From Dehalococcoidia bacterium (lineage in GTDB: Bacteria > Chloroflexota > Dehalococcoidia > SpSt-223): DNA of 64,000 bases. A program made the translations under genes and the position numbers. Location of the stretch: contig JANWZD010000003.1 of the NCBI GenBank assembly GCA_025054935.1, positions 62,001 through 126,000 of the forward strand, written 5' to 3'. Of this stretch, positions 14,615 through 16,420 are shown in pieces; position 1 is the first letter of the stretch, and each line of letters opens with the position of its first letter. The notes beneath the pieces are model-generated. The model searched no databases. It was not told the DNA's origin and was given only the letters and a program-made list of their open reading frames with translations.

Positions 14615-15535
14615 CTACCCAGCGCGCCGAACAGTCGGCTGAAACAGGCTCAATTGGATCGGCTCTGGCGGCGGCGCGGCAGGGACCGGCGGCGCGACCT
14701 CATGCGGCATCCCAATCCGGTCGCGCAGCCGCTGAAGGATCGCAGCAATCTGCAGCTTGAAACGGTCGCTGACGTACGCGCCCGGATACAGCTTGCGGTA
14801 GACCGGCAAGAGGCCGGGGTGCTCGCGGGCGAGATAGGCGAAGAAATGTTCGCGGACGCCAGGGCGCAGATGGAGCACATTGCCGCTAACGAACCGCGCC
14901 CCGTGCGCTTTGGCCGCGCGCATCACGGCGGCGAGCTGATCATCGCGGGTTGTCAGCCCGGGGATGATCGGCGCGAGCAGGACCCCAGCGTGGATCCCCG
15001 CCTGCGTCACCTGCTGAAGCGCGCGCAGCCGCTGCTCCGGGGGCGGCGTGCCGGGCTCGAGGGTGCGCCACAGCCGCCGGTCGAGCGTCGGGATGCTGAA
15101 GCAGACGGTGACCCCCGCGGCGTCGCGCAGCCCTTGGAGAACATCGAGATCGCGGACGATGAGCGTACCCTTGGTGACGATCGTCACGGGGGTGCGCTCC
15201 GCGGCGAACACTTCGAGGCAGCGGCGCGTCAGCCGGTAGCGCCCTTCGATCGGCTGATAGGGGTCGGTGGCGGTGCCGAGGGAAACCCGCTCGCGCCGCC
15301 ACGACGGGCGCCGCAGCTCGTCGCGAAGCACTTCGGGCGCGTTCACCTTCACGAAGACGACCTTCCCAAACTGGCTGCCGTCGAGATCGAGAAACGTGTG
15401 CGTCGCGCGAGCGAAGCAATAGTGGCAGTCGTGAACGCAGCCGCGGTACGGATTGGCGCTCCAGAGGAACGGCATCCCGCTCACCCGATTGATCAGCTGC
15501 TTGCACGGCCGCTCGACGTACTGAACGCGCGCCAT
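14615..15535 (-). CDS. Radical SAM protein, SPL (spore photoproduct lyase)-like family
   Basis: A 306-residue radical SAM enzyme. Cys33, Cys37 and Cys40 in 'RGCVHDCHYCFAR' are the iron-sulfur ligands (CX3CX2C). The surrounding blocks 'PFLWSANPYRGC', 'GTATDPYQPIEGRYRLTR' and 'TVCFSIPTLD' are typical of the SplB-like/Rv2578c-like group. The ATG at 15535 with GGAGGAG 3 nt upstream is chosen. A longer frame to 15616 would read through the promoter and its palindrome. The SOS-type operator upstream suggests damage-induced expression and a DNA-repair-linked role; the actual substrate is unknown. Confidence 0.88.
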   Translation of the reverse strand: MARVQYVERPCKQLINRVSGMPFLWSANPYRGCVHDCHYCFARATHTFLDLDGSQFGKVVFVKVNAPEVLRDELRRPSWRRERVSLGTATDPYQPIEGRYRLTRRCLEVFAAERTPVTIVTKGTLIVRDLDVLQGLRDAAGVTVCFSIPTLDRRLWRTLEPGTPPPEQRLRALQQVTQAGIHAGVLLAPIIPGLTTRDDQLAAVMRAAKAHGARFVSGNVLHLRPGVREHFFAYLAREHPGLLPVYRKLYPGAYVSDRFKLQIAAILQRLRDRIGMPHEVAPPVPAAPPPEPIQLSLFQPTVRRAG

Positions 15536-15552
15536 CGTCTCCTCCTCGAGCA

Positions 15553-15582
15553 AGGATAGAACATTTGTTCTATCACCGGCAA
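15553..15582 (-). promoter_or_regulatory. Promoter of the radical SAM gene with operator in its spacer
   Basis: Minus-strand TTGCCG (15577-15582), 18-nt spacer, TATCCT (15553-15558). The 20-bp palindrome lies across the spacer and the start of the -10, where a bound repressor would block RNA polymerase. Confidence 0.5.
15555..15574. promoter_or_regulatory. SOS-box-like palindrome (GAAC-N4-GTTC)
   Basis: GATAGAACA-TT-TGTTCTATC: two 9-bp arms, perfectly symmetric around TT/AA. The core GAACATTTGTTC fits the LexA site of Gram-positive type. LexA binding is inference. Confidence 0.6.
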
Positions 15583-15629
15583 CAGCGAAGAGCGGCATCG
15601 TTCGGTCTGGCGGCATGCTCCTCGGTATG

Positions 15630-16055
15630 TCACAAAGTCGCGCAGAAGCACGATGTCGAGCCCGGGAAAGCGGGGCAGGGTCGGATCATTCGTGACGAAC
15701 GCGGCCGCGCCGCGTGAGACTGCAGCGGCAAGGTGGATCGCCTCCCGCTGTCTCAGCCCGAAGCGGGCTTGCAGGGCGGCGGCGTGGCGACGCTGTTCAC
15801 TGAGCCTCCAGCTATCATCAACAGAAAGGTGCGGAACCGCGTCATCAGGATGCGATAATCGTGACGCGCTTCTGGGCGGCCAAGGGCAAGAGGACGCACC
15901 TCGATCTCCATCTGGGTCAGGAATGACGTTATCCCGCGAAGACGACCGTGCGCTCTCGCGTCTAAGAGAGTGCCCGCCGGTTTTGCCTCCGCGGAGGAGT
16001 TCTGGAACAGATAGAGAGCGAGGAGTCCAGCGCGACGGTGCTGTGCGCGGTCAGC
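15630..16055 (-). pseudogene. Decayed PIN-domain toxin (VapC-like)
   Basis: Three reading frames joined end to end give one PIN-domain protein. Frame 1 reads LLTAHSTVALDSS. After a shift near 16015-16025, frame 2 reads 'LYLFQNSSAEAKPAGTLLDA', then 'ITSFLTQMEIEVRPLALGRPEA'. After a shift near 15815-15830, frame 3 reads 'QARFGLRQREAIHLAAA' and 'GAAAFVTNDPTLPRFPGLD'. These match the order of acidic PIN blocks (N-terminal D, central E, 'TND' D). The start has become CTG, overlapping the antitoxin TGA where ATG would be expected, and no stop follows the expected C-terminus. At least three lesions make it non-functional. Confidence 0.8.
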
Positions 16056-16382
16056 AGTTCGAGCCGTGCAGCGATCGTCCGCTCGCTGCTGCCGCTGGCC
16101 GTTTCCGCTGCGCCTGCTCCGGCATGGCTGCGGGAGGTCCGCCGAGATGGCGAACGTACTCTTGTGGGGCGATCCCCTCCCAACGGTCGGCATGAAGGCC
16201 ACCAGCCGCCTTACGGGGTCGTCGGGGCGGACAGAGACGAGGATCGCATCGCCACGACGCGGCTCGAGGATAAGCTCATCTCCCTCCTAGACCGAGAAAG
16301 CTCCGCCAATTATCTTCGGCAGGGAGAGGCGCCGGCTTTTGCTCAATCGGAGAGTTCGCCCATAGATCTCATTCCAGAGCAA
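16052..16382 (-). pseudogene. Decayed AbrB/MazE-type antitoxin (VapB-like)
   Basis: Reads 'IYGRTLRLSKSRRLSLPK', then an in-frame TAG (16287-16289), then 'EGDELILEPRRGDAILVSV' and 'DDPVRRLV'. A frameshift near 16180 leads to 'GIAPQEYVRHLGG' and a TGA at 16052-16054. This is the layout of swapped-hairpin AbrB-type antitoxins, placed directly before the PIN-domain remnant as in vapBC operons. The nonsense codon and the shift show that it is dead. A possible original TTG start lies at 16382. Confidence 0.72.
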
Positions 16383-16408
16383 GCGGGAGAGCGCGCAGGC
16401 AATCCCGG

Positions 16409-16414
16409 TATACT
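16409..16414 (+). promoter_or_regulatory. -10 box of leaderless nucleotidyltransferase transcript
   Basis: TATACT, 6 nt, then GTG 16421. There is no Shine-Dalgarno sequence in between. Confidence 0.5.
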
Positions 16415-16420
16415 CCGGCT

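Follow-up and report, generated by a model that had tools for sequence, protein, structure and literature searches.

A predicted LexA operator and a candidate sliding-clamp peptide in a radical SAM gene of a Dehalococcoidia bacterium

A gene for a radical SAM protein that resembles spore photoproduct lyase (SPL) carries a palindrome across its promoter. The window, i.e. the whole 64-kb stretch of Dehalococcoidia DNA that was analysed, contains the gene on the minus strand, and the palindrome is very probably the site of the bacterium's own LexA (SOS) repressor, judging by its sequence and surroundings. The control region has the following features.

15577–15582, minus strand: −35-like hexamer TTGCCG, by resemblance to the consensus only
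15555–15574, no strand assigned: predicted LexA operator (SOS box), GATAGAAC-ATTT-GTTCTATC, from the sequence, a genome search and conservation before orthologues and before lexA of relatives
15557–15572: operator core TAGAACN4GTTCTA
15553–15558, minus strand: −10-like hexamer TATCCT, which overlaps the operator, from the window sequence and the TANNNT that follows the box in orthologues
15539–15547, minus strand: ribosome-binding-site-like GAGGAGGAG, from the window sequence

The letters at positions 15554–15582 are GGATAGAACATTTGTTCTATCACCGGCAA. As read from the window sequence, TTGCCG (15582–15577) and TATCCT (15558–15553) are separated on the minus strand by an 18-nt spacer, and the ATG of the radical SAM gene is at 15535, 19 nt downstream of the palindrome. 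A sequence-only reading had placed a palindrome across this promoter at 15553–15582, and it is there. The repeat was also said to be a perfect 20-bp palindrome, but only nine of its ten pairs match, the two central T residues being the break in symmetry. It was further said to fill the spacer between the two hexamers; it does occupy the spacer region, but it extends over the first bases of the −10 hexamer as well, with which it shares 4 nt. Farther upstream on the minus strand (15575–16420), no intact gene is found between the operator and a nucleotidyltransferase-like gene. Fragments in two frames of this region were considered as a broken AbrB/VapC pair, and this was dropped as they have no Pfam match.

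The 12-bp core GAAC-N4-GTTC is not significant by itself. It is found once in the window, where 0.91 is expected, and it is not enriched across the 3.57-Mb genome, with 55 occurrences versus 58 for a reversed control pattern. Fifty of these 55 sites were inspected, the recA site included, and 28 of 40 retrieved core sites fall within open reading frames that are coding-like by a crude codon score, so that most of the sites are probably chance occurrences. The extended form is different: exact TAGAAC-N4-GTTCTA is present at only two places in the 3.57 Mb, the radical SAM promoter and the recA promoter. With up to two mismatches allowed, the window has one such site (with no mismatch) against 0.24 expected, and the genome-wide two-mismatch list is not enriched (32 versus 103 in the reversed control). 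Support for the site thus comes from the 16-bp form, the recA match and the conservation between species, and not from the 12-bp core.

The sequence-only reading had proposed a search for the same palindrome before recA and lexA, and had called GAAC-N4-GTTC the LexA box of Gram-positive type. The search supports that assignment. The recA gene has an exact TAGAAC-N4-GTTCTA (TAGAACTCTTGTTCTA), the core of which ends 21 nt before the ATG; lexA has a GAAC-N4-GTTC core 17 nt before its ATG (GAACGTCTGTTC/GCGAACGTCTGTTCCGAAC); and ruvC has a core 28 nt before its start (GAACGAACGTTC/TAGAACGAACGTTCCG). The LexA encoded by the genome matches PF01726 (LexA_DNA_bind) at 70.7 bits, and both PF01726 and PF00717 (Peptidase_S24) are over the Pfam cut-off. 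An exact core also lies 102 nt upstream of ssb, and radA and dnaX have box-like sites two mismatches off the 16-bp form, which are weak on their own in view of the genome-wide counts of the core and of the two-mismatch form. Weaker or more distant box-like sites are upstream in the polA region and before a NurA-like gene (NurA 16.4 bits, cut-off 21). The recA, ruvC, radA, dnaX, polA and ssb genes were identified from translated sequence and not by family search, and the regulon evidence in the genome leans on recA, lexA and ruvC only.

Five box-like sites of the genome are at C1:543503, C6:67207, C8:57361, C5:8318 and C10:12564 (contig and position). The genes behind these encode a sigma-70 region 4 protein, an unknown 192-aa protein, a small DUF2267-like protein (a weak match), an Ala-rich protein and the NurA-like protein. 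By their sites, these genes are possible members of the SOS regulon.

An exact GAACN4GTTC is present within 250 nt upstream of 49 of 79 orthologues, and 56 of the 79 have it with at most one mismatch; the count covers 79 of 80 loci, L075 being left out as it has only 55 nt of upstream sequence. In the same 79 upstream stretches the reversed pattern occurs once, and five rearranged patterns do not occur. Other windows of the orthologue loci have the box in six of 1415 cases, and the interior of the orthologue genes in none of 237. By taxonomic group, as assigned from record titles, the exact box precedes 22 of 23 orthologues in Actinomycetota, 20 of 28 in Chloroflexota, five of eight in Bacillota and two of four in others. 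It precedes none of the 11 in Acidobacteriota and none of the five in Rokubacteria; gene starts were taken from homology, and some upstream windows are misplaced, chiefly among Acidobacteriota with longer N-termini. The 31 loci that lack an exact box were searched again, to 200 nt upstream of the most distant in-frame start, and no exact box was found.

Among the 11 orthologous loci of related genomes (L034–L044), five have the exact box and three more have it with one mismatch. No box, exact or with one mismatch, is found before the orthologues at L037, L039 and L041, and genome G034 has no GAACN4GTTC before its orthologue. L037 belongs to a genome of the same genus (G001), which has GAGAACTGTTCTC instead of GAACN4GTTC before the orthologue; the sequence there, GCGAGAACTGTTCTCGC, consists of the half-sites with a 1-nt spacer in place of the box.

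The position of the box is conserved together with promoter motifs. Of the 49 boxed orthologues, 44 have TANNNT after the box, where random windows taken from these loci predict 1.85, and ten have TTGAC no more than 27 nt upstream of it, where 0.67 is expected. By these motifs the box is integrated in the promoter of the orthologues, and its conservation between species, at the sequence level, puts it beyond chance. The box is also present before lexA in a set of 30 loci, i.e. the present genome and 29 relatives: 21 have it exactly and 28 with at most one mismatch.

A further line of evidence comes from relatives that have another operator. Plasmid-borne PA0069-type genes of alphaproteobacteria have GTTC-N7-GTTC upstream in ten of 12 cases, versus one of 196 control windows, although three are from Paracoccus and three from Azospirillum. 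This is presumably the alphaproteobacterial form of the LexA site. A relative in Aeromonas has CTGTATATATAAACAG upstream, which we take to be the gammaproteobacterial form. A relative in Legionella has none of the three operator motifs upstream. The operator thus seems to change with the LexA of the lineage while the gene remains under LexA.

The likeness to an SOS box might instead be a coincidence, the palindrome serving a different dimeric repressor that has a similar half-site, or forming a hairpin element. The core is not rare, as single-stranded DNA the arms can pair into a hairpin of −5.3 kcal/mol (z −3.77), and the genome has a second LexA_DNA_bind match, weak and below the cut-off. 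However, coincidence would have to explain the same motif before recA, lexA and ruvC of this genome, the box before lexA in most of the 30 loci and the substitution of the GTTC-N7-GTTC form in alphaproteobacteria, and this explanation is very improbable. Recognition by LexA finds strong support in the motif, the genome context and the conservation, and the radical SAM gene would then be induced by DNA damage.

The product of the gene has the following features.

14615–15535, minus strand: SPL-like radical SAM gene, 306 aa with the stop codon included, from NCBIfam, Pfam and a predicted model
15416–15439, minus strand: CX3CX2C radical SAM cluster motif (C33, C37, C40), unchanged in all 65 sequences of the alignment
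14642–14656, minus strand: QLSLF, predicted beta-sliding-clamp-binding pentapeptide (residues 294–298), from the conserved tail and a low-confidence segment of the model

The protein belongs to the radical SAM superfamily, with a Pfam Radical_SAM score of 59.7 bits (cut-off 29.5). The best NCBIfam model is NF038135, the Rv2578c family, at 311 bits over residues 4–276, which is below the cut-off of 430; NF033668, the PA0069 family, scores 239 bits, below its cut-off of 360. We know of no established substrate for radical SAM proteins of the Rv2578c/PA0069 type. The predicted model, built on an alignment of 65 sequences, has a pLDDT of 94 (about 97 in the core and about 71 in the last 26 residues), and its best fold match is to SPL chains, with Z 21.1–21.3 and an rmsd of 2.8–3.0 over 258–261 residues; the next family has 16.4.

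This fold match, together with a weak sequence similarity that spans the radical SAM core, might indicate a bona fide SPL under LexA control that acts on the SP lesion. Several properties make this doubtful, and we hold it to be improbable. Scores for the SPL families are below cut-off (PF20903, 22.0 versus 27 bits; TIGR04070, 30.6 versus 400 bits), and to our knowledge spores are not known in most of the groups that carry orthologues. In addition, the only invariant cysteines among the 65 sequences are C33, C37 and C40 (the next is C11, in 47 of 65), and the alignment of these sequences has no conserved counterpart of Cys140, the hydrogen donor of SPL. SPL requires a further cysteine; titles of its structures in the PDB name C140 mutants, and an abstract mentions a radical transfer route that includes a cysteine (PMC5368176). 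Since only the cluster-ligand cysteines are invariant, a reaction chemistry unlike that of SPL is to be expected. The fold is probably that of SPL and the chemistry probably is not.

The C-terminus of the protein provides a second signature. The tail ends ...PEPIQLSLFQPTVRRAG, and in the predicted model it shows no secondary structure, a pLDDT of about 71 and eight residues after QLSLF. QLxLF and QLxLxL are the two named forms of the clamp-binding motif (PMC4564189), and clamp-binding peptides that have been tested include QLPLWG of ImuB (PMC10421592) and QLSLPL of Hda (PMC3836487). By sequence the window protein thus has a QLxLF-type peptide, situated in a segment predicted to be flexible.

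Of 79 complete orthologues, 52 have QLxL within their 45 C-terminal residues; L128 is left out as a contig end cuts it. Shuffled tails give a mean of 1.8 and at most 8. Q[LMFI]x[LMFI] is present in the last 20 aa of 63 of the 79 (shuffled mean 1.7), and addition of the acidobacterial form Qxx[LMFI]x?[FW] brings the count to 72 (shuffled mean 2.0). These data had a part in shaping the patterns, and the result is that there is an excess, not how large exactly it is. Q294 is nearly invariant and is among the most constant residues of the alignment. Alanine is the commonest residue at tail position 5 (20 of 52) and phenylalanine is there in just five of 52, so that many tails match the hexamer form only. 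The present genome offers no ImuB or DinB control for the motif, as a PF00817 search of this genome (96.8% complete) found no Y-family polymerase, although boxed lexA and recA genes are present.

The tail extends to more distant relatives. In a plasmid set of 21 relatives, of Rv2578c/PA0069 type or from Gemmatirosa or clostridia, 17 have a tail of the Q[LMFI]x[LMFI] type and the remaining four end in QESLF, QEPLF, QYSLF and QGELF (Qxx-L-F). Proteobacterial tails end in QLSLF, QLRLF and QLTMF, and the Legionella relative keeps a QLDLF tail though no box is seen before its gene. Neither of two mobile-pair B paralogues examined has a clamp-type tail. The clamp-type tail is thus common to the Rv2578c and PA0069 types.

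In the neighbourhood of the orthologues, two of 209 open reading frames have a QLxL tail. Both are exonuclease-like genes near the radical SAM gene (L072:4210-5307 and L083:1454-2542) that end in the clamp-type DQLRLF. The L072 copy, from which the score comes, resembles the ligase-associated DNA damage response exonuclease (TIGR04122, 219.5 bits, below the cut-off of 325).

Eight acidobacterial orthologues (L070, L074, L076, L079, L081, L098, L101 and L129) are longer at the N-terminus, and the extra segment has LLFDL-, QSSLFPL- or QLTFLGF-like stretches. Their C-termini mostly have Qxx[FL]x[WF] and not QLxL, and exact GAACN4GTTC is absent before all eight. By their sequence, the N-terminal stretches may be an additional clamp peptide or one that has been displaced.

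The tail might also be read in another way, with the operator still a LexA box: the C-terminal QLxLx(L/V/I/M) would be a C-degron of the ClpXP type, through which the enzyme is removed once the SOS response is over. Many SOS proteins are short-lived, and 47 of the 52 QLxL tails end one to three residues past QLxL, often as LAV, LAI, LAM or LAL. Such a signal does not fit well with the near invariance of Q294, or with tails in which the motif is internal, as it is here and in three orthologues with 11–15 residues beyond QLxL; the proteobacterial tails are unlike LAA-type tags. A degron is therefore an unlikely reading, if slightly less so than a true SPL.

The clamp-type tail together with the SOS box suggests an undescribed damage-repair enzyme that is recruited to replication sites. 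We regard it as quite likely that the gene encodes a LexA-repressed, clamp-tethered radical SAM enzyme that reverses lesions by a chemistry unlike that of SPL. In the undamaged cell LexA would be bound on the −35 and −10 hexamers and in the space that separates them, and the gene would be off. RecA filaments on damaged DNA would trigger LexA self-cleavage and the gene would be transcribed, co-induced with recA, lexA and ruvC, and probably with ssb and radA. The flexible C-terminus (QLSLF) would most likely dock the enzyme on the sliding clamp when this is loaded on DNA, at forks that have stalled or been repaired, as the conserved short peptide suggests. Most likely the docked enzyme would then reverse a lesion, or resolve an intrastrand link, by 5′-deoxyadenosyl-radical chemistry; direct reversal is proposed from the fold and the cluster.

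Proteins of the Rv2578c/PA0069 type are widespread, and in the present analysis they are found in Chloroflexota, Actinomycetota, Bacillota, Acidobacteriota and Proteobacteria. There is perhaps an even chance that across bacteria they are an unrecognised class of SOS-induced, clamp-tethered enzymes that carry out direct reversal by non-SPL radical chemistry at fork lesions, either beside translesion synthesis or, where no Y-family polymerase is detectable, in its place. It is speculation that the radical SAM enzyme matters more in the present genome, where no such polymerase is seen. Damage control and the predicted clamp peptide are two independent handles, one on when the enzyme would act (after SOS) and one on where (at DnaN), and they make the lesion question directly testable.

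Rv2578c of Mycobacterium tuberculosis is probably a LexA target; no paper that joins Rv2578c and LexA was found in the open literature searched. Among the open-access papers listed there was likewise none on a beta-clamp peptide in a SplB-like protein of bacteria. SOS control of splB-like genes is on record for Alpha- and Betaproteobacteria (PMC3323433) and for Bacteroidetes, the latter with earlier citations (PMC8565304), and an SOS-controlled radical SAM protein for Gram-positives and Balneolaeota (PMC7739468). The sequence-only reading took the box to link a poorly known radical SAM family to DNA damage; the LexA box supports this link, but the link to SOS had already been published in these papers.

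Comparison with known systems shows what is shared and what differs. As in the Gram-positive LexA regulon, GAAC-N4-GTTC is situated at the promoter and is found before recA and lexA. The LexA table of Streptomyces venezuelae includes a radical SAM gene, and the box given there is tCGAAC-N4-GNNCGa, with flanks CG...CG versus TA...TA in the present Chloroflexota-related genome (PMC9380542). The published SOS-regulated splB/COG1533 genes (Alpha- and Betaproteobacteria, Bacteroidetes, Balneolaeota and Gram-positives) are of the same enzyme group with lineage-specific LexA motifs; the passages that treat them make no mention of a C-terminal clamp-type peptide, and the present taxon is new to this set. 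With the Rv2578c family (NF038135) the protein shares the aligned region, and the conserved QLxL tail lies past the model match. The PA0069 family (NF033668) has the same radical SAM core and a terminal QLxLF of the same type (in Paracoccus, over the cut-off), but differs in the C-terminal region before the tail and in its GTTC-N7-GTTC operator. SPL has the same fold and CX3CX2C cluster, whereas the window protein lacks a conserved fourth cysteine and scores under the SPL cut-offs. ImuB, Hda and the E. coli polymerases have the same QLxLF or QLxLxL peptides (PMC10421592, PMC3836487, PMC4564189); these are polymerases, a polymerase-like hub and a replication regulator, and none is a radical SAM enzyme. 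Comparable too are the archaeal SplB-like genes beside NreB, about which a review of PCNA partners asks what they repair (PMC4929162). These also have a sliding-clamp link, through an NreB motif described there as a less clear-cut PIP, but the link is in a separate neighbouring protein, whereas in the bacterium described here it is predicted to be in the enzyme itself.
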